23,149 bases of DNA from positions 1 to 23,149 of the forward strand of contig JAMDBS010000020.1 in NCBI GenBank assembly GCA_023487325.1, given 5' to 3'. This stretch comes from Patescibacteria group bacterium. Lineage in GTDB: Bacteria; Patescibacteria; UBA1384; JAMDBS01. A program made the translations under genes and the position numbers. Of this stretch, positions 10,541-22,478 are shown piece after piece (the first letter of the stretch is position 1; the number at the start of each line of letters is the position of its first letter). Below the pieces are notes generated by a model that was given only the letters and a program-made list of their open reading frames with translations, had not been told where the DNA came from and did no database searches.

Positions 10541-10879
10541 ATGTACTGGATTTATTGTGCCAGTTGCACGTTGTATGGGAAAACCCTAGAGCAAGGGACA
10601 AGGAATTTACTAGCTGGGTATATCGTGTGCCCGCATAACGGTAAAATTGTTGGAGCATGCGACGTTGCCTGCGAAGATGGGCATATGATTTCCACTAATC
10701 CCCATCGGCTGAAAAAAACTTGTGATCCAGGTAAAATTGAGGATTTAAAACAAGCCATCGAGAAAATGGAGCGTGAACGTTTCGAGCAAGAACAGCAAAA
10801 AGCTCAACAGCCAGTTCAGTTGGTGTTTTTTAACCCAACCGCTTCTGAACTTTTCCCGCAGAGAGGCCTTTATTCATAG
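10541..10879 (+). CDS. Small Cys/His-rich protein of unknown function
   Basis: I do not recognise this 112-residue protein. It has six cysteines (C6, C9, C30, C40, C44, C61) and histidines at 32, 48 and 55, arranged like one or two metal-binding knuckles (C-x2-C near the start, C-x-H, C-x3-C, H, then C). A charged, glutamine-rich helix, probably a coiled coil, spans about 66-90, and the C-terminus is hydrophobic and ends in Tyr-Ser. No signal peptide or membrane helix is visible. The very strong ribosome site (AAAGGGGG), own promoter and own terminator indicate an independent, probably well expressed transcript. The stop codon lies inside the terminator stem. Metal binding is inference from residue spacing. 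Confidence 0.75.
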   Translation: MYWIYCASCTLYGKTLEQGTRNLLAGYIVCPHNGKIVGACDVACEDGHMISTNPHRLKKTCDPGKIEDLKQAIEKMERERFEQEQQKAQQPVQLVFFNPTASELFPQRGLYS

Positions 10880-10957: not shown

Positions 10958-12025
10958 ATGAATATTTTAGATGATGAAAAAATTTATCAAAAGCTAGATC
11001 CTAAAGCGATGTTGCAATCTATTAAAGATTTGCCCGATCAATTAAGCGCGGCAACAAAACAAATTGGCGAACTTTCTCTGCCAACCCATTATATTAAGGT
11101 TAAAAACATTGTTATTTTAGGAATGGGCGGTTCAGCCATTGGCGGGTCTCTTACAGCCAGTTTGGCTGCTATGCAAATAAAAGTGCCTGTTTTTGTTTAT
11201 CGCGATTATGATCTGCCAGCTTTTGTAAATCATGAATCATTAGTAATTGGCACTTCTTATTCTGGTAATACCGAAGAGACTGTTTCGGGCTTTGAAGAAG
11301 CCGGCAAGCGTGGCGCTAAACTGGTGGCTATTTCCTCTGATGGAAAAATTGAATCGTTATGCCGAAAATTTCGCGTGCCGATGTTTAAAATAGATTATGG
11401 TGCTCAGCCGCGTGCCGCGTTAGGATATTTATTTGGCGCGGTGGTGGGAATTTTAAATAAGTTACGGTTTATTGAGTTAGAAAAAGATGAGGCGGAAAAA
11501 ACAGTTTTGGCAATGAGAGATTTGGAGAAAAATATTCATTCCGGGATTAATACCGCGCGAAACAAAGCTAAGCAGCTGGCACAGCGAATACAGGATAAAA
11601 TCCCCATAATTATAGGAAGCGGCACGCTCTGCGAGGTAGCAAGACGCTGGAAAACCCAGATTAATGAAAATGCCAAACAAACAGCCTTTTTTGAACATCT
11701 GCCGGAATTAAATCATAATATGGTTGTGGGTCTGGAGTTTCCCGTAAAATTGTCGGAAAAAATATTTATTGTAATGTTACAGAGTCAATTTGACCATAAA
11801 CGCAATAAATTGCGCGAACAGATTACCTTACAAATATTCCAGCAGAAAAAAATCCAGTATGAGACAATTTTTTTACAAGAAGCAAAAACACCATTTATGG
11901 AAATGATGCTGACTATATTCTTGGGTGACTACGTTTCTTATTATATGGGTATTTTAAATAAAGTTGATCCGACGCCAGTAGAGACAATTAATTATCTAAA
12001 AGATAGGCTGGCAGGAAGTAAGTAG
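10958..12025 (+). CDS. Bifunctional phosphoglucose/phosphomannose isomerase
   Basis: The enzyme interconverts glucose-6-P and fructose-6-P, and mannose-6-P and fructose-6-P, feeding glycolysis. The 355-residue protein has two SIS (sugar isomerase) domains. The first contains ILGMGGSAIGGS (53-64) and GTSYSGNTEET (98-108), the phosphate-binding loops typical of the archaeal and bacterial bifunctional family; QPR follows at 150-152. The candidate catalytic residues in PELNHN (Glu250, His253) and the closing segment GDYVSYY...DPTPVETI match the family. A GAGGAG ribosome site precedes the ATG. Enolase follows after 25 bases. It is much shorter than classical PGI, consistent with the bifunctional type. 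Dual activity is from family knowledge. Confidence 0.9.
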   Translation: MNILDDEKIYQKLDPKAMLQSIKDLPDQLSAATKQIGELSLPTHYIKVKNIVILGMGGSAIGGSLTASLAAMQIKVPVFVYRDYDLPAFVNHESLVIGTSYSGNTEETVSGFEEAGKRGAKLVAISSDGKIESLCRKFRVPMFKIDYGAQPRAALGYLFGAVVGILNKLRFIELEKDEAEKTVLAMRDLEKNIHSGINTARNKAKQLAQRIQDKIPIIIGSGTLCEVARRWKTQINENAKQTAFFEHLPELNHNMVVGLEFPVKLSEKIFIVMLQSQFDHKRNKLREQITLQIFQQKKIQYETIFLQEAKTPFMEMMLTIFLGDYVSYYMGILNKVDPTPVETINYLKDRLAGSK

Positions 12026-12050: not shown

Positions 12051-13247
12051 ATGGCGAAAATAAAAGATATACGCGGTAGAAAGATTTTGGACTCGCGGGC
12101 AAATTCGACGTTAGAGGTTGACGTTTTATTAGATGACGGAGCTTGGGGCAGGGCTTCTGTCCCTTCGGGTGCTTCGACCGGTTCTCATGAAATATTTAAA
12201 CTCGAGGATATCGATAAGGCAGTAGAAAATGTCGATATTTTAGCTAAAAGCCTAATTGGTCAAGAAGCTTCCGATCAAGAAAAAGTAGATCTGTTAATGA
12301 TTAATACCGATGGTTCACCGGAAAAACAAAACTTAGGCGGAAATGTTATTTTAGCTATTTCTTTGGCAGTTTGTGAAGCGCAAGCCAACTCACTGCGTCT
12401 CCCACTTTATAGATACATTGCCAGCTTATATGGTTTAAAAAATAATTTTCGACTCCCCACGCCTCTTTTTAATGTTATAAATGGCGGTAAGCATGCCGAC
12501 AGTAATTTGCCCTTTCAGGAATTTATGATAATTCCGCTCGGACAAAAAAATTTTAAACAAAAAGTTGAAGAAGGCGCCATGATATTTAAATTGCTAAAAA
12601 AGACTTTACACGAGATGGGTCTGGCCGTGGCGGTTGGTGACGAAGGCGGCTTTGCGCCTCGACTTAATTCTAACGAAGAAGCTTTAGAAATTCTTACTAG
12701 TACAATCGAAAAATCGGGCTTAAAGCCTAGACTGGATATGGGTATTGGTTTGGATGTTGCCGCTAGTTCGATTCCTGACCTTAACCCTATCACCTATCCC
12801 CTTGATCCGTTAAGATACTATCAGAAAATCGTCAATGAATATCCTATTGTTTATCTAGAAGACGGTCTCGGCGAAGATGATTGGGAGGGATGGAGCAAGT
12901 TAACTAAATTACTAGGTGGTCAGATTAAAATTGTCGGTGACGATTTATTTACTACTAATCCCGCGCGCATCGAGCGCGGCGTAAGAGAACAATCAGCTAA
13001 TGCAATTATTATTAAGCCCGACCAAATTGGTTCGCTTACAGAAACCCTAAGAGCTATTAAAATGGCAAAACAAGCTGGTTTTAGTATCGTGGTATCTCAT
13101 CGGTCAGGCGAGACCGAATCGACTTTTATTGCCGACTTAGCTGTCGGCGTTGGCGCCGAATTTATTAAAACTGGAGCGCCTTCACGCGGCGAGCGAGTTT
13201 CTAAATATAATCAATTACTCAGAATAGAAGAAGAGCTGAGCATATAA
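12051..13247 (+). CDS. eno: Enolase
   Basis: Enolase converts 2-phosphoglycerate to phosphoenolpyruvate in the cytosol. The 398-residue protein is slightly short for the family (about 420-430); the shortfall is near residues 238-255, where the usual KYDLDFK-type segment is condensed. Key parts are intact: the mobile loop SGASTG (39-44), GGKHADSN (146-152), the catalytic Glu198 in GDEGGF, metal ligands Asp235, Glu270 and Asp297, catalytic Lys322, and SHRSGETE (349-356). At the usual K-x-N-Q-I-G the sequence is KPDQIG. AAGGAGGGG provides a strong ribosome site. It lies in the same direction as the isomerase before it and the three mutases after it, next to its functional partner. Confidence 0.97.
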   Translation: MAKIKDIRGRKILDSRANSTLEVDVLLDDGAWGRASVPSGASTGSHEIFKLEDIDKAVENVDILAKSLIGQEASDQEKVDLLMINTDGSPEKQNLGGNVILAISLAVCEAQANSLRLPLYRYIASLYGLKNNFRLPTPLFNVINGGKHADSNLPFQEFMIIPLGQKNFKQKVEEGAMIFKLLKKTLHEMGLAVAVGDEGGFAPRLNSNEEALEILTSTIEKSGLKPRLDMGIGLDVAASSIPDLNPITYPLDPLRYYQKIVNEYPIVYLEDGLGEDDWEGWSKLTKLLGGQIKIVGDDLFTTNPARIERGVREQSANAIIIKPDQIGSLTETLRAIKMAKQAGFSIVVSHRSGETESTFIADLAVGVGAEFIKTGAPSRGERVSKYNQLLRIEEELSI

Positions 13248-13314: not shown

Positions 13315-14913
13315 ATGGAAAAAAAACCCGTTATTTTAATTGTTTTAGATGGTTACGGTATGGCCGCAACAACCGAAGGCAACGCGGTATTTTCTGCCAA
13401 AACACCGGTTTTCGACACGCTAATAAAAAAATATCCAACCGGGCTGTTAACTGCATCTGGAACAGAAGTAGGTTTGGATTGGGGCGAAATGGGAAATTCC
13501 GAGGTTGGACATTTAAATTTAGGCAGCGGCCGGGTAGTTTTGCAAGATTTTTCCAGAATAAATAAATCAATTACCGATGGCTCATTTTTTGAAAATGAGG
13601 CCTTATTAGAAATCGCTAATCATGTTAAAAAGAGCAAAAGCACTCTTCACTTAATGGGATTATTATCAAACGGTGGCGTCCATGCGCATATTGATCATAT
13701 AAAAGCATTACTTGATTTTTGCAATCAGCAAAAAATCTCTCGTGTCGCCTTGCATTTATTTACTGATGGCCGCGACACAGCGCCAAAGATCGCACAACAT
13801 TTACTAGATATAGTTCAAGAAAAAATCAACAAAGTCGGTAATAGCAATTGGAAAATAGCTAGTTTAATTGGCCGCTTTTATGCTATGGATCGAGACAAAC
13901 ACTGGGAGCGAATAGTTAAGGCATATGATCTTATAACGCAAGGAAAAGGTGAGAAATTTACTAGCTATAAAGACGCGATTGATAGCGCCTATAAAAATAA
14001 GAATTTTGATGAAGAATTACCGGCATCTATTATAGAACCAAATTATATGCTTTCCGATAATGACGGTTTAATATTTTTTAATTTTCGCCGTGATCGCGCT
14101 AAACAAATCGCTCAAACGCTGATTGATCCGAATTTTAAAGATTTTGCCAGGCAAAAAATCATTAAAAATTTATTTTTTGTCGGTTTTGTCAATTATGGAC
14201 AGGAAGCTAATTTTAAGGTTAAAATCGCTTTTTTTAATGAAAAGATAAAAAATCAGCTTGCTGACGTGTTGGGAAAAAATAAATTTAGTCATTTGCATAT
14301 TGCCGAAACAGAAAAATATGCCCACGTTACTTACTTTTTTAACGGCGGCGAAGAAAAACCGTTTTTAGGCGAAGAAAGGATTTTAGTACCCTCACCGCGC
14401 GTTACTTCTTATGCGCAAATACCACAAATGTCAGCTAAAATGGTAACGGAAAAATTACTTGCTTATATTAAAAAAAATCGACCGGATTTTACAGTTTTAA
14501 ACTTTGCTAATCCGGATATGGTCGGCCATACCGGTAATTTTGCGGCTACCGTAAGCGCAATCGAATTTATTGATCAATGCCTAAAAAAGATATTAACGAC
14601 GATTTACCAGATTCATCCTGACACTTCATTATTAATTACTGCCGATCACGGTAATGCCGAGCAAATGATTAATCCAGAAACAAAAAGCATTGACAAAGAA
14701 CATACCACCAACCCAGTTCCTTTTATTTGCATAGAAAATGTCAGCGATCTAGTCAATATCGAAAAATTTGCCGAAGATAAAGACGCTAAACTGAATATTG
14801 CCGCCCAGAGCAGTACAGGAATTCTTGCCGATGTTACCACGACAATTTTGGATCTAAATGGACTTAAAAAAACCTCGGAAATGACCGGCATAAGCTTAAA
14901 AGGCAGGATATAA
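13315..14913 (+). CDS. gpmI: 2,3-bisphosphoglycerate-independent phosphoglycerate mutase, copy 1
   Basis: The enzyme interconverts 3-PG and 2-PG through a phosphoserine intermediate with two Mn2+ ions. The 532-residue protein has the alkaline-phosphatase-fold domain split by the phosphotransferase domain. Asp12 and the nucleophile Ser62 in GNSEVGH fall at the positions numbered the same in the Geobacillus enzyme. His121, Arg151-Asp152 (DGRD), the two arginines in GRFYAMDRD, FRRDR and Lys in ETEKYAHVTYFFNGG cover substrate binding. DMVGH, TADHGNAE and HTTNPVPF supply the metal ligands. All are intact, so it should be active. AAGGGG precedes the ATG. The second copy starts 2 bases after its stop, which indicates cotranscription. 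Confidence 0.96.
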   Translation: MEKKPVILIVLDGYGMAATTEGNAVFSAKTPVFDTLIKKYPTGLLTASGTEVGLDWGEMGNSEVGHLNLGSGRVVLQDFSRINKSITDGSFFENEALLEIANHVKKSKSTLHLMGLLSNGGVHAHIDHIKALLDFCNQQKISRVALHLFTDGRDTAPKIAQHLLDIVQEKINKVGNSNWKIASLIGRFYAMDRDKHWERIVKAYDLITQGKGEKFTSYKDAIDSAYKNKNFDEELPASIIEPNYMLSDNDGLIFFNFRRDRAKQIAQTLIDPNFKDFARQKIIKNLFFVGFVNYGQEANFKVKIAFFNEKIKNQLADVLGKNKFSHLHIAETEKYAHVTYFFNGGEEKPFLGEERILVPSPRVTSYAQIPQMSAKMVTEKLLAYIKKNRPDFTVLNFANPDMVGHTGNFAATVSAIEFIDQCLKKILTTIYQIHPDTSLLITADHGNAEQMINPETKSIDKEHTTNPVPFICIENVSDLVNIEKFAEDKDAKLNIAAQSSTGILADVTTTILDLNGLKKTSEMTGISLKGRI

Positions 14914-14915
14914 TT

Positions 14916-16493
14916 ATGGAAATATTGCCACAAAAAAAAGTGGTGTTGCTAATCTTAGATGGTTGGGGTTATGCGCCGCCTTGGGGCGGAAACGCTATTT
15001 CTATTGCTAAAACACCCAATTTTGATCATTTGTGGCGCTATTATCCTCATACAATTATTGGCGCTTCCGGAGTTTCGGTGGGATTGCCCGGTCATGAACG
15101 CGGAAATTCAGAAGTCGGACATCTTAATTTAGGCGCTGGGCTCATTCCCCTGCAAGATAGCAATAGGATAAATGAATCGATTAATGATGGCAGCATATTT
15201 AACAATCATGTAATTTTAGAAACCATAAATTACGCCAAACACAAAAATTCCAATTTGCATATAATGGGGTTGGTTTCCAACGGCAATATTCATTCTCATA
15301 TCAATCATTTATTTGCCTTATTGGATATCTGTAAAAAGCAAGATTTTAAAAATGTTTACATTCATGGCTTTTCTGATGGCCGAGATAGTAACCCAATGGC
15401 TGCCCAAACTTTTTTTGCGCAGCTAGAGAACAAGCTCAAAGAGATAGGTTTTGGTAAAATCGCTACAATTTCTGGCCGTTATTACGCCATGGATCGAGAT
15501 AATCATTGGGAAAGGACAGAACTGGCTTATAATGCAATGGTTCAAGGTCGCGGTAATTTTGCACCCTCAGTTTTAAAGGCAATTGCCAGTTCGTATCAGG
15601 CGGGAATTAATGATGAATATATTAAACCCACCGTTATTTTAGACGACAGCAATAAGCCAATCTCCACTATTAAAGATAATGACAGCATGATTTTTTTTAA
15701 TTTTCGCGCCGATCGAGCCAGGCAAATCGCCATGGCTTTTATGAGCGAAAATATGCCATATTTTCATCGACAAAAAATAAATAACTTATTTTTTGTCGGG
15801 ATGATACCCTATGGCTACGAGGAAGAGCTAAAGTTAAATTTATTAAGTGCTTTTAAAACAGAAAAAATAAATAATCCGATTGCCAGGGTACTATCAGAAA
15901 ATAATTTAAAGCAACTCCATATTGCCGAAACCGAAAAATATGCCCATGTTACCTACTTTTTTAATGGTGGCGAAGAAAAGCCATTTTTAGATGAAGATAG
16001 AGTATTAATTGCTTCGCCTCGCATCTCATCTTATGCATTGAAACCGGAAATGTCGGTTTATTCAATAACCGAACAGGTACTAATAAAACTACGTAATTAT
16101 AATTTTATAGTTATTAATTTTGCTAACGGCGATATGGTCGGCCATACCGGTGATTTCGGTGCTACTGTTAAAGCTTGCGAAGTAGTCGATGTTTGTTTGG
16201 GCAAGGTTTTTAATGAGGTTTTAAATCTCAATGGGACACTCATAGTAACTGCAGATCATGGCAATTGCGAAGAAATGATAAATATTAAAACAGGCGAACC
16301 ACACACCGAACACACAAACAACCCGGTACCATTTCTTATAATCGGACAACAATTTAAAAATATAACAAATATTGGTCAATATTTGCGGCCCAATGGTATT
16401 TTAGCCGATGTCTCGCCTGTTTTAATATTTATAATGGGTTTGTCTAAGCCCATGGATATGACTGGTAATTCTATCATTTTTAACAATAAATAA
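14916..16493 (+). CDS. gpmI: 2,3-bisphosphoglycerate-independent phosphoglycerate mutase, copy 2
   Basis: The second full-length member of the array has 525 residues and the same domain order. Metal and nucleophile residues are Asp15 and Ser65 (GNSEVGH). His126, Arg156-Asp157 (DGRDSNP, with Ser for the usual Thr), GRYYAMDRD, FRADR and the ETEKYAHVTYFFNGG lysine are all present, as are DMVGH, TADHGNCE and HTNNPVPF. It keeps every catalytic residue I can check and should be active. The N-terminus PPWGGNAIS is closer to the classical family than copy 1 (ATTEGNAVF). It starts 2 bases after copy 1; AGGCAGG near the end of copy 1 could serve as ribosome site. Its sequence is clearly diverged from copy 1, so this is not an assembly duplication. 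Confidence 0.96.
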   Translation: MEILPQKKVVLLILDGWGYAPPWGGNAISIAKTPNFDHLWRYYPHTIIGASGVSVGLPGHERGNSEVGHLNLGAGLIPLQDSNRINESINDGSIFNNHVILETINYAKHKNSNLHIMGLVSNGNIHSHINHLFALLDICKKQDFKNVYIHGFSDGRDSNPMAAQTFFAQLENKLKEIGFGKIATISGRYYAMDRDNHWERTELAYNAMVQGRGNFAPSVLKAIASSYQAGINDEYIKPTVILDDSNKPISTIKDNDSMIFFNFRADRARQIAMAFMSENMPYFHRQKINNLFFVGMIPYGYEEELKLNLLSAFKTEKINNPIARVLSENNLKQLHIAETEKYAHVTYFFNGGEEKPFLDEDRVLIASPRISSYALKPEMSVYSITEQVLIKLRNYNFIVINFANGDMVGHTGDFGATVKACEVVDVCLGKVFNEVLNLNGTLIVTADHGNCEEMINIKTGEPHTEHTNNPVPFLIIGQQFKNITNIGQYLRPNGILADVSPVLIFIMGLSKPMDMTGNSIIFNNK

Positions 16494-16526
16494 TTATCCA
16501 AATAATTAATAAGGGAAAAAAGAATA

Positions 16527-16535
16527 TGCTATAAT
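16527..16535 (+). promoter_or_regulatory. Candidate extended -10 promoter for gpmI copy 3 and downstream operon
   Basis: TGC followed by TATAAT (16530-16535) is a consensus extended -10; the -35 region (TTAATA near 16506) is weak. The predicted start near 16542 leaves a very short leader that begins about at the ribosome site AAGGAG. It could drive copy 3 and the acetate genes separately from copies 1 and 2. Confidence 0.5.
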
Positions 16536-16554
16536 TAATAATTAAGGAGCTAAT

Positions 16555-18180
16555 TTGCCAGAAGTTGATAATATAACAAAAACGTACAAGCCAATCGTAC
16601 TCATAATTTTAGACGGGTGGGGTTTATCACCTGCTTGGGGTGGCAATGCTATTTCTGTTGGCAACCCAATGAATTTTAATTCCTACTGGCGCGATTATCC
16701 GCATCGAGTCTTGCAGGCACTGGGGAAAATTGTTGATAACAAAAGCGGCAAAGTAAGCAGCTCGGAAGTTGGACACGCTTCTATTGGCACCGGCAGATTG
16801 GTATTAGAAGATTTAACAGAAATTAATAAATCTATCCGCGATGGATCTTTCTATCAAAACGTTGTTCTGACAACTTTAATGGACGATATTAAAGAAAAAA
16901 ATACTAATTTACATCTTATCGGATTGCTTTCTGATGGCGGCGTTCATTCACATACAGACCATATTTTTGCCCTTCTGCTATTGGCAAAAAAACATAATTT
17001 AAATCAAGTTTATATTCATGCGATTACTGACGGGTTGGATACCGATCCGCATTCAGCGCTGGGATATTTATATGAATTAGAGCGCAAAATAAAAGAAATT
17101 GGCATTGGGGTTATAGCTACGGTCTGTGGCCGCGCTTATGCTATGGATAGAAATAATAATTGGGATAAAACCGCCAAAACATACGAAGCACAGGCAATGG
17201 GGCATGGTTACGAAGTTTTTTCTGCTCGTTCGGCCATTAGCGAGGCATACAAACTCGGCTATTCAGATTCTCTGATACCGCCCTCTGTTATTATAGAAAA
17301 TAAAAAACCAATTGTGACTATACAAAATAACGACGGAATAATATTTTTTAATTTTCGGGCCGACAGAATGAAGCAATTAGCCAGAGCTTATGCAGACAAA
17401 AATTGTTTTAAAAGTCTATTTACGCGTCGTTATCGCCTAATGCCGTTGGAAATAGCCTCATTTACTTCTTACCATTTAGAAAAATTACCAATTAAAATTA
17501 TATTTCCGGCAAGCGTTATCAGCTCGTCTTTAGCGCAAATACTTTCTGCCCATGGTTTACGTCAGATGCACATTGCCGAAACCGAAAAATATGCCCATGT
17601 TACCTATTTTTTTAATGGCGGCACCGAAGTCCCGTTTCCCAAGGAAGACAGAATTTTTATTTCATCTATAAAAGTGAGATCTTATGAAGAAAAACCCGCA
17701 ATGGCATTAGATAATTTGACTGACGAGATAATGAGACAAATAAATTCTAATAAATACGATTTTATTGTGGCTAATATTCCTAACGTTGATATGGTAGCTC
17801 ATACCGGCAATATTTTAGCTACACAACGGGCAACTAGCTTGGTTGATAACTCGCTTAAAAAAATTTACAATGAAATCATAAAACGTGATGCGGCCCTAAT
17901 TATTACTGCCGATCACGGTAATGCTGAGCAAATGTCACTTTTGGGCAGAAAATTTGGCGAAAGGCATCACACTCTAAATCCGGTACCATTTATTTTAATT
18001 ACTCCAGATAATAAAAAGAACTTGATGTCCAGTGCTTTAGGTAAAAATCAAAGTATTCTGCCAGAAATGATTTCTAGTTCATATACCTTAGCAGATGTTG
18101 CGCCAACAATTCTAGATATGCTGGGTATTTCTAAACCAGTGGAAATGACGGGAAAATCACTGCTTGATACTTTTAAATAA
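16555..18180 (+). CDS. Divergent iPGM-family protein, copy 3 (substrate-site changes)
   Basis: This 541-residue protein aligns along its full length with the two mutases before it. It keeps Asp20, the nucleophile Ser70, His131, GRAYAMDRN, FRADR, ETEKYAHVTYFFNGG, the DMVAH and TADHGNAE metal sites, and HTLNPVPF. It differs at key points. The GN before the nucleophile is SS (SSSEVGH, 68-74), and DGRD is DGLD, so the substrate arginine equivalent to Arg153 is Leu161. The usual PSP after the lysine motif is SSI. Metal chemistry looks intact but phosphoglycerate binding should be changed; it may act on another phosphate ester or be a weak or regulatory mutase. The start is TTG at 16555, supported by AAGGAG at 16543-16548. 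pduL follows after 17 bases. Confidence 0.85.
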   Translation: MPEVDNITKTYKPIVLIILDGWGLSPAWGGNAISVGNPMNFNSYWRDYPHRVLQALGKIVDNKSGKVSSSEVGHASIGTGRLVLEDLTEINKSIRDGSFYQNVVLTTLMDDIKEKNTNLHLIGLLSDGGVHSHTDHIFALLLLAKKHNLNQVYIHAITDGLDTDPHSALGYLYELERKIKEIGIGVIATVCGRAYAMDRNNNWDKTAKTYEAQAMGHGYEVFSARSAISEAYKLGYSDSLIPPSVIIENKKPIVTIQNNDGIIFFNFRADRMKQLARAYADKNCFKSLFTRRYRLMPLEIASFTSYHLEKLPIKIIFPASVISSSLAQILSAHGLRQMHIAETEKYAHVTYFFNGGTEVPFPKEDRIFISSIKVRSYEEKPAMALDNLTDEIMRQINSNKYDFIVANIPNVDMVAHTGNILATQRATSLVDNSLKKIYNEIIKRDAALIITADHGNAEQMSLLGRKFGERHHTLNPVPFILITPDNKKNLMSSALGKNQSILPEMISSSYTLADVAPTILDMLGISKPVEMTGKSLLDTFK

Positions 18181-18197
18181 AATTATGAAAGGGATTT

Positions 18198-18773
18198 ATG
18201 ACAAAAGTAAATATTGAAATTTCTGCCCGTCATGTTCATTTGTCTCAAAATGATTTAGAGGTTTTATTTGGCAGCGGCTATAAACTAGCAGTCTATAAAA
18301 ATCTATCTCAGCCGGGACAATTTTCTTCTCAAGAAACCGTCGATATTAAAAGTCGCAATAATACTATTGAAAAAATTAGGATTGTTGGGCCGATAAGAGA
18401 GCAGACACAAGTTGAATTGTCTTTGACCGATTGCCGATTACTAAAGATAGATGCTCCAATTTTAGTTTCTGGTAATTTAAATAATTCAGTTGGTGACATA
18501 ATAATTGTTGGACCGCATGGGACTATAAAGTTAAAAAAAGGTGTTATTGTTGCCCAAAGGCATTTGCACATCGAACCAGATAAAGCAAAAACTCTAAACA
18601 TACAAAACGGTGATTTAATAGCAATAAAAATAAATGGACAACGATCGTTAATCTTTAATAATGTTGCCGTTCGCTCACGTAAAGATATCGATAAATTTGT
18701 TGTCCATTTAGATACTGACGAAGCTAATGCCGCCGGCATCGATGGCGAAAATACAGGAGAAATTATTGTATGA
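18198..18773 (+). CDS. pduL: PduL-type phosphate acyltransferase (phosphotransacetylase)
   Basis: The enzyme exchanges CoA for phosphate on short acyl groups, for example acetyl-CoA plus Pi to acetyl-P plus CoA. The 191-residue protein consists of the two beta-barrel halves of the PTAC fold. Zinc-binding histidines are in SARHVHLS (His12, His14) and AQRHLHI (His122, His124). The closing HLDTDEANAAG (170-180) is a family signature. It starts almost directly with the catalytic domain, so the N-terminal encapsulation peptide of microcompartment PduL is absent and the enzyme is probably cytosolic. The stop overlaps the ackA start by 4 bases (ATGA), which implies translational coupling. Acetyl as the acyl group is inferred from that neighbour; PduL is unrelated to the classical Pta. 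Confidence 0.93.
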   Translation: MTKVNIEISARHVHLSQNDLEVLFGSGYKLAVYKNLSQPGQFSSQETVDIKSRNNTIEKIRIVGPIREQTQVELSLTDCRLLKIDAPILVSGNLNNSVGDIIIVGPHGTIKLKKGVIVAQRHLHIEPDKAKTLNIQNGDLIAIKINGQRSLIFNNVAVRSRKDIDKFVVHLDTDEANAAGIDGENTGEIIV

Positions 18774-19930
18774 AAAAGATATTAATATTTAATACTGGCA
18801 GCTCGAGTATTAAATATGATTTATTTGAGTTTGAAAATGAGCATAATATAAATTTAATAAAAAAAGGGTTAGTGGATCGAATTTGTTCACCCCTTGGTCC
18901 TAAAAGCTATAAAGATGCATTGGCTATCCTTTTTCAGGGTTTTGAAATGGGCGACAGCTATCTAAGCAAGATCCCCGATTTATTTGCTATCGGGCATCGT
19001 GTTGTTCATGGAGGAGATAAGTATAATAAAACGACTTTAATTGATAAAAATATTTTAAAAGATTTGGCTCATTATAATTTATTGGCACCATTACATAATC
19101 CCCCAATTATTGAAGTTATCGAATCGATTTTATCGGTAAGCGGCAAAAAAGGGCACAGAAACATACCCAATTATGCTGTGTTTGATACAGCATTTTTTAA
19201 AGATTTGCCCGAAGTTACTAAAATATATCCTCTCCCCTATAGTTTTTATGAAAGCTTCGGTATTAGACGCTATGGTTTTCACGGCATTTCTCATCAATAT
19301 GCTTTTGAGCACACTAAGGAAAAATATCCTAAGGCCGAAAAAATTATCACTATTCATTTAGGGTCTGGTAGCTCGATTACGGCAATAATTGGGGGATTCC
19401 CTATCGACACCAGCATGGGATTCACGCCGCTTGAAGGCTTAATGATGGCTACGAGGTCTGGCGATATCGATGCGGGTATTATACATTATTTAATTGAAAC
19501 AAAACGCATTACTCATAGGGAAGTTGATAATATTTTAAACTACCAATCAGGTCTTTTGGGAATTTCCGGTACAAGGCACGATGTTAGGGATTTGCTTTAT
19601 TTAGCCGATTATCCAGTTGAGGAAACTGGATATAAATTCAAGGCTTCAAATCCACTGGAAGTATCTAGCGAAAATAAAATAAGGGCTAAATTAGCCTTGG
19701 ATATGTATATATACCGAATTAAAAAATATATTGGCGCATATGTGGCCGCACTAGACGGCTGTGATGTGATTGTTTTTACCGGTGCTGTCGGCGAAGGATC
19801 CGCGTTTTTAAGAACCAAAATACTGGAAAATCTATCTTGTGTTTTATCCAATACGATCGTTAATATTGTAAAACAAGACGAGGCCAGACAAATTGCTAAA
19901 GAAATAATTAGCTTGGCACATAAGGAATAA
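18770..19930 (+). CDS. ackA: Acetate kinase
   Basis: It converts acetyl phosphate and ADP to acetate and ATP, the substrate-level phosphorylation step of acetate fermentation. The 386-residue protein of the ASKHA fold has the N-terminal phosphate loop NTGSSSIK (8-15), GHRVVHGG (75-82), the catalytic Asp139 in VFDTAFF, RRYGFHGISHQY (166-177, with His171), and the second phosphate loop HLGSGSS (196-202). MATRSGDIDAG (226-236) and FTGAVGEGS near the C-terminus complete the pattern; the latter is usually FTAGIGEN. It overlaps pduL by 4 bases and is followed 1 base later by the oxidoreductase alpha gene, with AAGGAA as ribosome site. Confidence 0.96.
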   Translation: MKKILIFNTGSSSIKYDLFEFENEHNINLIKKGLVDRICSPLGPKSYKDALAILFQGFEMGDSYLSKIPDLFAIGHRVVHGGDKYNKTTLIDKNILKDLAHYNLLAPLHNPPIIEVIESILSVSGKKGHRNIPNYAVFDTAFFKDLPEVTKIYPLPYSFYESFGIRRYGFHGISHQYAFEHTKEKYPKAEKIITIHLGSGSSITAIIGGFPIDTSMGFTPLEGLMMATRSGDIDAGIIHYLIETKRITHREVDNILNYQSGLLGISGTRHDVRDLLYLADYPVEETGYKFKASNPLEVSSENKIRAKLALDMYIYRIKKYIGAYVAALDGCDVIVFTGAVGEGSAFLRTKILENLSCVLSNTIVNIVKQDEARQIAKEIISLAHKE

Positions 19931-19931
19931 T

Positions 19932-20960
19932 ATGGGGCAAAAGAAATTTATAACTGGAAACCAGGCCGTACTAGAGGCGGCTATAAACGTTGGCGCTCAA
20001 TTTATGGCAGGATATCCAATTAGTCCAACCACGGAAATATTAGAAGGTTGGTCGAAACTATCAGCTAAAAACAAAAAATATCAGTTTTTACAGACTGAAG
20101 ATGAGACTGCGGCTGGTTTTAATGTAATCGGCGCAATTTTGAGTAATAAAATGGCGTTTACCGCTACAACTGGTCCAGGCAATATTTTAATGCAAGATCC
20201 AATTATTATGGCCGAGGCAATGCGTTTGCCATTTGTCGGAATTATTATGCAACGGGGAGGTCCCTCAACTGGGACCATGGTTTATGGCCAACAAGAATTA
20301 ACTTTAACTTGTTTTGGCGGTAATGGCGAGGGCTTGAGAATTGTTTATTCAACTGCTTCTCCGCAAGAGCTGTATGATTATACGATAAAATGTTTTAATT
20401 CCGCTTGGAAATATAAATTTCCATCTTTTATTTTAGGCGACGGTTACCAAGCCAAGCAAAAAACAGAAGTTACATTAAAAGAATCAAAAAAAATTAAAGC
20501 CGATGATATTTTTGCTAAGCATAATCAAAATTTGCGTAATTGCTTTAATTTCGAAAATGAATTAAATAAAAAATTAGTAAAAGATATTAATGATTTTAAA
20601 AAACATTCATCTAAAATTATTGAGTATTTTGCTTATAAATGCTGGGATGCGGAAATTATTATTTGTGCTCACGGAATCGTTAGTTTGACGGCATTAGAAG
20701 CCATTAATACTCTTCGAAAAATGAGTATAAAAGTTGGTTTATTTCGGCCAATTACTTTAAATCCCTTTCCGCAAAGGGCATTAAATATAATGGCCAGAAA
20801 TTGTAAAACAATATTAATTGCTGAATCGGCAAACGGTCATTTTTTTAGACTAGTTAAAGCCAACTTGAATTTAAATAAAATAATTTACACGTTGTTTAGA
20901 CCCGTTGTGGATATATCCCCTCAAGATATTATCAATAAAATTGATGATATAAAGGAATAG
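19932..20960 (+). CDS. 2-oxoacid:ferredoxin oxidoreductase, alpha subunit (KorA/VorB-like)
   Basis: This is the pyrimidine-binding subunit of a thiamine-diphosphate enzyme that cleaves a 2-oxoacid to acyl-CoA and CO2 while reducing ferredoxin. The 342-residue protein starts with the typical KKFITGNQAVLEAA and GYPISPTTEI (about 27-36). LQTEDETAAGF carries the glutamate region expected near the cofactor, followed by TTGPGNILM and QRGGPSTG. The C-terminal part (from about residue 230) is the transketolase C-like domain. Substrate is not settled from sequence: the subunit layout resembles 2-oxoglutarate or 2-oxoisovalerate enzymes, while linkage to pduL and ackA suggests that the product is used for acyl-phosphate formation. 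It lies 1 base after ackA and 2 bases before the beta gene. Confidence 0.91.
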   Translation: MGQKKFITGNQAVLEAAINVGAQFMAGYPISPTTEILEGWSKLSAKNKKYQFLQTEDETAAGFNVIGAILSNKMAFTATTGPGNILMQDPIIMAEAMRLPFVGIIMQRGGPSTGTMVYGQQELTLTCFGGNGEGLRIVYSTASPQELYDYTIKCFNSAWKYKFPSFILGDGYQAKQKTEVTLKESKKIKADDIFAKHNQNLRNCFNFENELNKKLVKDINDFKKHSSKIIEYFAYKCWDAEIIICAHGIVSLTALEAINTLRKMSIKVGLFRPITLNPFPQRALNIMARNCKTILIAESANGHFFRLVKANLNLNKIIYTLFRPVVDISPQDIINKIDDIKE

Positions 20961-20962
20961 TA

Positions 20963-21715
20963 ATGGCATTATTTAAAAAAATCAAACCCGAAATACCTGA
21001 TTCGATCAATAAATACAATAAACCTCATAAATTTTGTCCGGGCTGTGGGCATGGTGTAGCTCTAAAAGAGCTCGGGTTTGCCATCGATGAATTTAAAATT
21101 AAAAATGACACCCTTATAGGAATTGATATTGGATGTTCGCTTCTAGCTTGGGATTTTTTTGGCGTTAAAACTGTGCAAACCCATCATGGCCGCACGGTGC
21201 CAGTTATTTCTGGCTACAAAGTTGCTCAACCCCAAAAAATTGGTATTGTCTATATGGGTGATGGTGGCGCTTACGCAATTGGTTTGCAAGCTCTAATTCA
21301 CGCAGCTTACAGAAATACCCCAATAACTGTTATTGTGATAAATAATACTCTCTATGGTATGACTGGCGGGCAAATGGCACCAACGACGTTATGCCTAGAG
21401 CGTACCGCTACTACACTCAATGGTAGGGTGTGCGGCACACAAAAACCATTTTTGGGTCCAGAAATGTTAAAAGATTTTGCTTGTTCATCTGCTTATATTG
21501 CCAGAACTTCCATTGATAATCCACTTGATGTACGCGAAAAAATTAAAAAAGCTATTGAGACACAAACAAACAAAAATTCTTTTTCTTTTGTAGAAATATT
21601 GTCTATTTGTCCAACAAACTGGAAAAAGAATGCCCATGAATCATTAAAATATTTAAAAAATGAAATGATGAAAAATTTTAAATTAGGCGAGATTAATAGG
21701 GGCGAAAATGATTAA
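20963..21715 (+). CDS. 2-oxoacid:ferredoxin oxidoreductase, beta subunit (KorB/VorA-like)
   Basis: This is the pyrophosphate-binding subunit of the thiamine-diphosphate enzyme. The 250-residue protein has FCPGCGHG (24-31) with two cluster cysteines (C25, C28) and a third in DIGCS (C58), which bind a 4Fe-4S cluster in the family. The THHGRTVPVISG segment and the thiamine/Mg motif GDGGAYAIG (99-107) with NNTLYGMTGGQ (127-137) are intact. ICPTNW near residue 211 resembles the 2-oxoisovalerate-type beta subunit, and its Cys may be the fourth ligand. The gene overlaps the next by 8 bases, a strong sign of coupled translation. Confidence 0.92.
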   Translation: MALFKKIKPEIPDSINKYNKPHKFCPGCGHGVALKELGFAIDEFKIKNDTLIGIDIGCSLLAWDFFGVKTVQTHHGRTVPVISGYKVAQPQKIGIVYMGDGGAYAIGLQALIHAAYRNTPITVIVINNTLYGMTGGQMAPTTLCLERTATTLNGRVCGTQKPFLGPEMLKDFACSSAYIARTSIDNPLDVREKIKKAIETQTNKNSFSFVEILSICPTNWKKNAHESLKYLKNEMMKNFKLGEINRGEND

Positions 21716-22478
21716 AATTTTAATTTCCGCTGAGGGTGGACAAGGCGGGCAAGTTTTAGCTGAGTTATTGTGCTCTGCTGCATATAAAGCTGGCTTCAAA
21801 GTATCACAAATGCCCCATTATGGCGTAGAAAAACGCGGCGGCATATCGCTTTCATATGTAATAATCTCTAAATCACCAATTAGTGACCCAAAATTTTCTT
21901 CCGCCGATATTATCGTTGCCACAACATGGCGACAAATCGAGATACCTAAAAATTATCAAAAGCATAGCAGCATAATTATTAATGGACAAGCATTAGCTAA
22001 AATTATTCGCGGACAAAAATTAAATTATCGTTCTTTAAATATGGCAATCTTGGGGATACTGGTTAACGAACTAAAAAAATGTGGCATTTCTTTAAATGAA
22101 AAAAGGGTTGAAAAATTAATTATAGAAAAATTTAAAAACAAATCAGATTTTACTGACAATATTAATGCCTTTAATTTAGGACTGGATCTGGAGCGGTCAA
22201 AATACAATCTTAGCTTAGAAACAATATTAAAACCGCAGTTTAATCCAATATCAACCAAAGTCACGGGAAAACAATACTTTATTTTTCCTAACCTTTGCAA
22301 AGGATGTGGCCTGTGTGTAGAGGTTTGTCCGGTTAAGGCTCTCGATTGGTCTGAGGAGAATATCAATTTTTTAGGCAGAACTTTGCCACGAGTAGATATT
22401 ACCAAATGCATAGCCTGCAAAAGATGCCAAAATATTTGTCCGGAATGCGCAATTAAAGTAGTTAAAAGTGGAAAATGA
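21708..22478 (+). CDS. 2-oxoacid:ferredoxin oxidoreductase, gamma subunit fused to 2[4Fe-4S] ferredoxin
   Basis: Residues 1 to about 185 are a KorC/POR-gamma domain with the nucleotide-type loop SAEGGQGGQ (8-16) and PHYGVEKRGG near 45, which contacts the catalytic subunits. Residues about 190-256 form a bacterial ferredoxin with two C-x2-C-x2-C-x3-C sets (C197, C200, C203, C207 and C234, C237, C240, C244), the delta-type electron-transfer module. In many organisms gamma and delta are separate genes, so this is a C-D fusion giving a three-gene complex. The start overlaps the beta gene by 8 bases. Electrons would pass to free ferredoxin; no hydrogenase is in the window. Confidence 0.92.
   Translation: MIKILISAEGGQGGQVLAELLCSAAYKAGFKVSQMPHYGVEKRGGISLSYVIISKSPISDPKFSSADIIVATTWRQIEIPKNYQKHSSIIINGQALAKIIRGQKLNYRSLNMAILGILVNELKKCGISLNEKRVEKLIIEKFKNKSDFTDNINAFNLGLDLERSKYNLSLETILKPQFNPISTKVTGKQYFIFPNLCKGCGLCVEVCPVKALDWSEENINFLGRTLPRVDITKCIACKRCQNICPECAIKVVKSGK

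Follow-up and report, generated by a model that had tools for sequence, protein, structure and literature searches.

The window analysed here, a 23,149-nt stretch of a Patescibacteria group bacterium genome (contig JAMDBS010000020.1 of assembly GCA_023487325.1), has the gene order pgi-eno-gpm-gpm-gpm-pduL-ackA-kor, in which the three gpm genes are full-length genes for cofactor-independent phosphoglycerate mutase (iPGM) (Table 1). Copies 1 and 2 are separated by 2 bases and copies 2 and 3 by 61 bases, and all three proteins match the iPGM_N and Metalloenzyme domains as well as the gpmI equivalog TIGR01307, with scores of 623, 613 and 514 bits, respectively, against a cut-off of 330.65. With E ≤ 3e-154 for every copy, a chance match is ruled out. 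Pairwise identity of copy 1 is 50% with copy 2 and 44% with copy 3. An earlier note on this DNA had described three complete, diverged iPGM genes in a row, after enolase and before pduL-ackA-KOR; the open reading frames, gaps and profile scores agree with this description, as do the profile matches of the neighbouring genes. Promoter-like matches of the kind seen in the gap between copies 2 and 3 were no commoner than in shuffled sequences (50 found, 46.1 expected).

Table 1 Features of the iPGM array and its surroundings (positions in the window)
Feature	Position	Strand	Basis or remark
pgi, bifunctional phosphoglucose/phosphomannose isomerase	10958..12025	+	PF10432; NF006426 over cut-off
eno, enolase	12051..13247	+	TIGR01060, 503 bits vs cut-off 300
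iPGM type A (copy 1), 532 aa	13315..14913	+	15/15 catalytic/substrate residues
iPGM type B (copy 2), 525 aa	14916..16493	+	15/15 catalytic/substrate residues
Promoter-like site, B-C gap	16506..16535	+	TTAATA-18-TATAAT, TG before; consensus match only
iPGM type C (copy 3), 541 aa	16555..18180	+	TTG start preceded by AAGGAG; paralogue type decaying in some relatives
Copy 3 Leu161 codon (R153 position)	17035..17037	+	residue alignment
pduL-type phosphate propanoyl/acetyltransferase	18198..18773	+	profile matches
ackA, acetate kinase	18770..19930	+	profile matches
korA, korB, korC with 4Fe-4S domains, 2-oxoacid:ferredoxin oxidoreductase	19932..22478	+	profile matches

The three copies are three old paralogue types, here called A, B and C. 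A scan of genome contigs with an alignment of type C gave at least 80 matches, mostly ordinary iPGMs, and the best locus led to the class that contains the Berkelbacteria. Of the checks proposed in the earlier note, a tree of the three proteins with their relatives separated C from A, B and the iPGMs from outside the class (99* in quick trees), and a search of related genomes for the same array found the A-B-C order in five other genomes of the class. That the triple array is an assembly artefact is practically refuted by this recurrence, and the copies are just 44–50% identical to one another. On the profile scores, the divergence of the copies and the recurrence of the order, an origin by chance or artefact is rejected.

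Type C was present in 21 of the 51 iPGM-bearing genomes of the class and was not found in 34 of 55 class genomes in the sequence at hand; distant members (e.g., G002 and G004–G009) had one iPGM match each, of type B. The gene directly 5′ of C on the same strand was A or B in all 19 genomes where it could be read, namely B in 16, counting the broken B gene of G033, and A in the three genomes G023–G025. In 19 of 20 arrays, counting that of the window, the intergenic gap does not exceed 64 bases. Relatives at 82–85% identity were covered as proteins; one with 84.8% identity to copy 2 and another with 83.7% to copy 3 are each assigned to a contig of 3,495 bp, in all likelihood a single contig. A plasmid search returned 45 records, all below 60% identity, with the best at 42% among the five matches listed. 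Outside the class, a second iPGM was directly adjacent in 7 of the 15 iPGM loci examined among the high scorers, and all readable sites of these pairs were intact, indicating that the earlier note went too far in expecting small genomes to be without tandem spares.

Since synonymous sites were saturated, with an NG86 dN/dS value obtained for A alone (0.061) in the G001-G050 comparison, conservation was judged from protein identities. In the two closest pairs compared, C was as conserved as its neighbours, whereas in most wider pairs it fell below A and B. Given the recurrence of three old types in a single order and the conservation of C in the closest pairs, the set appears maintained and specialised, as the earlier note had supposed from its retention; of the roles proposed there, different substrates are conceivable, since the nucleophile and metal site persist in most C proteins.

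Catalytic and substrate residues were counted after alignment to the solved enzyme 1ejj, through which we mapped the 15 positions that we take to be the metal, nucleophile and substrate residues. All 15 were kept in 26 of 27 A rows, 42 of 43 B rows and 16 of 16 outside rows; the two misses have no residue at all at D12, and the 70 A and B rows are otherwise intact where readable. Copy 3 keeps 14 of 15, the sole loss being R153, which is replaced by Leu161, and the residue before its catalytic serine is Ser rather than Asn. The statement that copies 1 and 2 retain their catalytic residues and copy 3 does not therefore stands, albeit narrowly, as copy 3 lost R153 only. R153 is invariant in the 86 A, B and outside rows. 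Among the C proteins, counted as every C-typed member (n = 108) of a 120-protein list, all 15 residues were present in 33 and R153 in 35. This count supersedes a sample of 35 hand-picked C rows (22 from the same list and 13 from the window and genomes), nine of which kept all 15. By contrast with R153, H123, D154, R185, R261, D403, D444 and H445 were kept in 108/108 and S62, K336, H407 and H462 in 107/108. With the nucleophile and metal site in place in the majority of C proteins, many of them may have remained enzymes. The residues replacing R153 were T, I, V, L, Q, Y, E or M, with at least six changes between Arg and not-Arg on a 36-row C tree, and this variety looks like release of the position, not a switch to one new specificity. 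Type C also has a proline of its own, Pro38, in 106 of the 108 proteins and in none of the 86 other rows.

Decay has gone much further in some relatives. Five of the 18 readable C genes of the class keep 0–2 of the 15 residues, and three more have lost 4–5, in G033 partly since the start of the gene is missing. Four of the five are 487–509 codons long, and the fifth (G051) is shortened to 369 aa. G046 and G055 pair a type B gene with a dead type C, which can hardly be an active mutase. Two families of such dead proteins, one with 11 members (479–495 aa, 30–51% identity to the query) and one with four (39–73%), have replacements in common where the active site once lay. None of 150 neutral simulations of the reading frame was still open at 70% identity, and the 11-member family exhibited among-site rate variation (lnL gain 193, alpha 1.44); these are signs of selective maintenance of the dead C proteins. 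An AlphaFold2 model built from dead sequences alone reached a pLDDT of 82 in the best of five (52.5–82.1), and the 22 best matches in a PDB search with it were all iPGMs; a model of the four-member family (pLDDT 37) was set aside. Against TIGR01307, six dead relatives tested scored 85–140 bits and the G018 C protein 294, below the cut-off, and the C proteins of G025 (410) and G033 (395) scored above it. The dead copies scored best with the C profile, by 22–56 bits (111 for G018), and degraded A, B and C proteins used as a control were assigned correctly in 96 of 96 cases. Of the dead families, the smaller has Pro38 in 4/4 members and the larger in 6/11. Because the dead copies have no settled place in the trees, and a tree grouping five dead rows with B exceeded the free one by 11.65 lnL (AU p 0.77), their descent from C is argued from profile scores, a single proline and gene position.

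Given that the same gene type decays elsewhere, a role for C that can do without mutase chemistry is favoured, and the likeliest form of such a role would be a heteromer; we tentatively hold, with less than even confidence, that C partners the active iPGM next to it. On this view the array would be an ancient trio of iPGM paralogues encoded with enolase and acetate-forming enzymes, with A and B as the working mutases and C as a specialised paralogue. The C protein would most likely bind the active iPGM encoded just upstream and tune or stabilise it, as dead 'prozyme' paralogues do, and the partner would not always be B, since it is A that adjoins C in G023–G025. Copy 3 of the window, with nucleophile and metal site present and only R153 gone, would presumably have lost mutase activity; several relatives have kept the protein with nearly the whole active site gone. 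It is possible, though less than probable, that lower glycolysis in Berkelbacteria-like bacteria runs with a heteromeric iPGM in which C serves as a subunit, either obligate or regulatory, that can dispense with an active site of its own. Several observations weigh against a partner role. Most C proteins look catalytic, copy 3 itself passes the gpmI cut-off with 14 of its 15 residues, C lags behind A and B in conservation in most wider pairs, and 34 of the 55 class genomes are without C at hand. The better fit of the dead rows on B and the absence of Pro38 from G019, G046 and G049 also count against it, and iPGMs are described as monomeric in PMC5382265.

The 108-protein count makes a partner slightly less likely and raises the likelihood of altered specificity. 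That type C carries an altered chemistry, as a metal-dependent phosphatase or a mutase acting on a different phosphorylated acid, with dead versions arising later where the activity was unneeded, is conceivable but somewhat doubtful: 107–108 of 108 C proteins, where readable, have the nucleophile, the metal ligands, D154 and K336, against 35 for R153, Pro38 is a fixed change of C's own and the closest pairs show strong conservation of live C, but R153 has eight different replacements instead of one, and dead proteins of this type persist in the same position at nearly their full size. If copy 3 were just one more iPGM isozyme, diverged to some extent and adding mutase activity or regulating it differently, this would account for the TIGR01307 score and residue count of copy 3, for the adjacent active pairs outside the class and for the promoter-like site before it, though that site is no better than shuffles. 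We consider it unlikely, as R153 is universal in the A, B and outside rows and absent from most C, and some relatives have lost nearly all of the active site with the frame intact. Drift of spare genes towards loss is very improbable; the five genomes at 0–2 residues, the shortened G051 and the often faster evolution of C in wider pairs would suit pseudogenes in the making, but not the neutral simulations, the rate variation in the dead family or a live C that matches its neighbours in the closest pairs.

Compared with gpmI as defined by TIGR01307, the window's proteins are alike in fold, length and domains, and the gpmI residue set is complete in copies 1 and 2 and incomplete in copy 3. They differ in forming three paralogue types in one operon-like run, with a type C in which R153 is no longer fixed and which, in some relatives, has been stripped of almost the entire active site. 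The closest analogy for a partner role is found in trypanosomes, where PMC5201418 and PMC3663545 describe a dead paralogue retained beside an active one for AdoMetDC (the prozyme) and deoxyhypusine synthase, with heteromer formation and activation shown by experiment; here it is an analogy only. The enzymes are different ones, and the genes here are adjacent bacterial genes. Judged by loss of catalytic residues with maintenance of the gene, the dead C relatives resemble prozymes, whereas copy 3 and most of the 108 C proteins are not dead by residue count. Gene adjacency (19/19) is the one pointer to a heteromer with an active paralogue, and gene order is likewise the sole support for channelling with enolase, which the earlier note had suggested and which may occur. 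PirC, a protein partner of an iPGM in cyanobacteria, is to our knowledge not an iPGM paralogue. It is a PII-interacting regulator and controls the monomeric iPGAM, according to PMC12077085, and is alike in being a protein partner of a monomeric iPGM. Among the best matches in the open-licence PMC literature, no paper was found on an array of gpm genes in Berkelbacteria, an iPGM pseudoenzyme partner or a non-monomeric iPGM.

A genome close to minimal size should shed spare enzymes, yet those described here carry a glycolytic enzyme as three old copies side by side, and in some of them one copy has outlasted its active site. The retention, in relatives, of a third copy almost devoid of catalytic residues suggests another job, perhaps that of helping its working neighbours. 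If C controls or holds together the active copies, a step described as monomeric has a paralogous subunit in this group. Central metabolism in candidate phyla can be misread if all gpmI genes are labelled mutases, or if the dead versions go by either name now in use. In the source annotations, the dead proteins are called 'hypothetical protein' or 'phosphoglycerate mutase'.

The three open-reading frames in the window were as the earlier note had described them, a row of consecutive genes for cofactor-independent phosphoglycerate mutase (iPGM). Each is a full-length member of the gpmI equivalog by TIGR01307 score with both iPGM domains present, and copies 2 and 3 share 50% and 44% identity, respectively, with copy 1. 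The genes lie in a single-strand run ordered pgi, eno, gpm, gpm, gpm, pduL, ackA, korA, korB, korC. In a hairpin scan whose matches were no commoner than in shuffled sequence, a terminator-like hairpin was found between pgi and the ORF preceding it, and none was listed on the plus strand of the gpm array. Copy 3 starts at a TTG preceded by AAGGAG. Active-site residues were mapped by alignment onto 1ejj, the solved enzyme of Bacillus stearothermophilus, with 15 positions (metal, nucleophile, substrate) numbered and assigned roles as in the literature on it. All 15 were retained in copies 1 and 2, and R153, replaced by Leu, was the sole loss in copy 3, in keeping with the contrast in catalytic residues that the earlier note had drawn between them.

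The nearest proteins to copy 3 showed 82–84% identity, and the next, among the matches listed, 61% and below. The best locus of a profile scan, a Candidatus Berkelbacteria record, pointed to genome G001; of its class, 55 genomes were examined, and iPGM was found in 51, many with two to five matches. Sixty stretches were fetched and the iPGM genes of all 51 genomes were typed by profiles, with five small fragments left out, giving three types, A (copy 1-like), B (copy 2-like), and C (copy 3-like), and a few ordinary iPGMs. The triple array, for which the earlier note had suggested a search of related genomes, recurs as consecutive A-B-C, in the order of the window, in G019, G033 (B broken), G035, G036, and G037. 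B and C stay paired in ten genomes, with A on a different contig or elsewhere; G017 has a B-C pair with no A found, G023–G025 have A-C with B absent, and further genomes have A and B, or B alone, with no C among the sequences examined. Type C occurs in 21 of the 51 genomes, including contig-edge fragments in G032, G034, and G052. Where the gene upstream of C is on the contig, it is a same-strand type A or B iPGM in 19 of 19 cases (B 16, A 3). Array gaps, measured from longest-ORF starts, are at most 64 bases or overlapping in 19 of 20 arrays, the window included, the exception being 214 in G019. In nine of the ten genomes with A elsewhere, the type B motif is NSEAGH or NSETGH, not NSEVGH (loci L118, L119, L120, L121, L122, L112, L136, L139, and L140; exception G018).

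Features in the window and in fetched loci of the class
Location	Genome	Observation
window 10541-10879		Small 112-aa Cys-containing ORF directly upstream of the pgi cluster
window 21708-22478		korC; POR gamma domain and C-terminal 4Fe-4S domains, gamma/delta subunits seemingly fused
L116:2392-3967	G033	Type B gene split between two frames, through either a real break or a sequencing error
L114:5197-7020	G037	Opposite-strand ORF resembling AMP-forming acetyl-CoA synthetase (by eye), between type C iPGM and kor, in the position of pduL-ackA in other genomes
L139:6707-7816	G051	369-aa shortened type C; two Metalloenzyme stretches, no iPGM_N match

In a 130-row quick tree, C and the dead rows (proteins typed as C by profile, with nearly all 15 residues lost) stood apart from all A, B, and outside-class iPGMs (support 99), and A formed a single clade of 27 rows (98). 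A 48-row mixture-model quick tree gave 96 for A, 91 for B, and 97 for C with G018, and a separate C tree gave 99 for the C clade. When 379 genomes drawn from the phylum were scanned with a C-alignment profile at E 1e-165 or better, a limit that decayed C genes would fail, the seven best matches (684–852 bits) were all in the class of G001, and other iPGMs scored at most 665 bits, the C of G053 among them at 612.

All 15 residues were kept in every one of the 16 outside rows, in 26 of 27 A rows, and in 42 of 43 B rows; the A row and the B row that fell short have no residue at D12. The matches listed for copy 3 number 120, of which 99 were typed as C; these together with 13 window and genome C rows, identical rows counted once, make a set of 108. 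Position 153 is Arg in 35 of them; the remainder have T (26), I (18), V (12), L (6), Q (4), Y (4), E (2), and M (1) there. Ninety-one retain R191, the other 13 sites are each kept in at least 106 or, for D12, in all readable rows, and the complete set is present in 33. The typical live C therefore has a nearly whole active site with R153 released. On a 36-row C tree, R153 underwent at least six Arg/not-Arg changes and 13 state changes overall. A C gene was readable in 18 class genomes, of which two keep all 15 residues (G017, G053), eight lack only R153 and/or R191, three keep 10–11 (G018, G025, and G033, with D12 unread in G033), and five keep 0–2 (G019, G046, G049, G055, and the shortened G051, whose phosphotransferase domain seems, by its domain matches, to be gone).

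Queries with the G046 and G055 proteins recovered two dead families, P0121–P0131 (11 proteins including the query's own, 479–495 aa) and P0138–P0141 (four proteins), both keeping 1–3 of the 15 residues and sharing residues of their own instead. The larger has an FC-x-x-FGGA-like sequence at TADHGNA and, in most members, SLYR at the start of NxDMVGHTG. Among nine decayed or dead proteins, Pfam matches exceeded cut-off for Metalloenzyme in nine and for iPGM_N in seven. Modeling from only the 11 dead sequences gave a structure (mean pLDDT 82, best of five at 52.5–82.1) whose 22 best PDB matches are all iPGMs (E 1.9e-27 to 1.3e-23, TM about 0.5–0.7), with a large rmsd that we take to reflect turned domains.

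The C profile was the best match for each dead copy scored, by 22–56 bits (111 for G018). In leave-one-out tests, the assignment to A, B, or C was correct in all 24 cases, and 96 of 96 proteins of these types that had been degraded artificially, drawn from the profiles' own training rows, were also typed correctly, indicating that this typing is not a bias toward C. Pro38 (copy-3 numbering) is present in 106 of 108 C proteins, in none of the 21 non-C proteins in the listed matches, and in none of the 86 rows of A, B, and outside iPGMs (one of which has a gap here); among the decayed and dead proteins it occurs in G018, G055, G051, all four of P0138–P0141, and six of the 11 P0121–P0131 proteins, and is absent from G019, G046, and G049. 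Support for C with the dead rows was 84 in the mixture-model tree, a position of P0138–P0141 next to the C of G053/G054 was not rejected (p = 0.43), and joining five dead rows to B was 11.65 lnL better than the free tree (p = 0.77). Set against the C-profile typing, the trees do not settle the origin of the dead copies, so that active-site loss is compatible with one event or several.

Conservation of C matches that of its neighbors in the two closest comparisons (G001–G050: A 78.3, B 74.6, C 78.3%; window and nearest relatives: B 84.8, C 83.7%). In wider comparisons it is often less conserved, with A, B, and C identities of 62.7, 62.8, and 58.5 for G035–G036, 51.5, 50.4, and 43.1 for G053–G054, and 50.0, 50.1, and 44.9 for window–G036, and A and C identities of 59.7 and 47.0 for G023–G025 and 53.7 and 48.9 for G024–G025; in three other contig pairs with the window, C was 1.8–10.7 points under B. 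C exceeded A in G023–G024 (A 56.7, C 63.2); in window–G037 it fell between its two neighbors (A 50.5, B 56.3, C 53.0). Dead pairs showed a much faster C (G046–G049, B 55.1, C 26.1; G054–G055, B 54.3, C 27.0). Four of the five dead class C genes have open frames of 487–509 codons; in neutral simulations, which ignore indels and so favor survival, 0 of 150 stayed open even down to 70% identity (mean 8.8 stops). The 11-member dead family showed clear among-site rate variation (lnL gain 193, alpha 1.44).

The class thus holds three old types in a fixed order, one of them released at R153 and in some lineages almost wholly decayed yet retained. Judged by residues, mutase activity is very unlikely in the dead C proteins, and for that reason their function would be non-catalytic; if live and dead C proteins share one job, that job would be independent of the chemistry. 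The likeliest partner of C would be the iPGM encoded just upstream, because an iPGM gene precedes C in every readable case. Changed or residual enzyme activity is a serious alternative for window copy 3 and most C proteins, and the fuller count of 108 moved some of the odds toward it. For the proposed partner role, there are known examples of dead paralogues activating a working one, in the AdoMetDC prozyme (PMC5201418) and deoxyhypusine synthase (PMC3663545), and of a bound protein, PirC, that controls an iPGM (PMC12077085). Partner activation is known in the two paralogue systems, whereas for type C the role is read from gene position, and an iPGM heteromer would be unusual, since iPGMs are described as monomeric (PMC5382265). 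Among the papers listed in our literature searches, none was recognized that deals with an iPGM pseudoenzyme or with Berkelbacteria gpm arrays; a glycolysis survey of candidate phyla maps PGM presence and absence (PMC7304191). Retained dead enzyme paralogues are a known kind, and the variant, an iPGM in a bacterial gene row with graded decay, appears to be new.

None of 15 loci outside the class, high scorers of the 379-genome scan, typed as C. In seven of them a second iPGM lies next to the first, intact as far as it can be read, and the oddity therefore lies elsewhere than in tandem iPGM as such. Six of the outside loci (L183, L188, L190, L191, L194, and L196) hold intact adjacent pairs, one member with NSEAGH and the other with NSEVGH, a second tandem theme in the phylum, apparently active; around the catalytic Ser, L188 has NSEVCH where the other pairs show NSEVGH.
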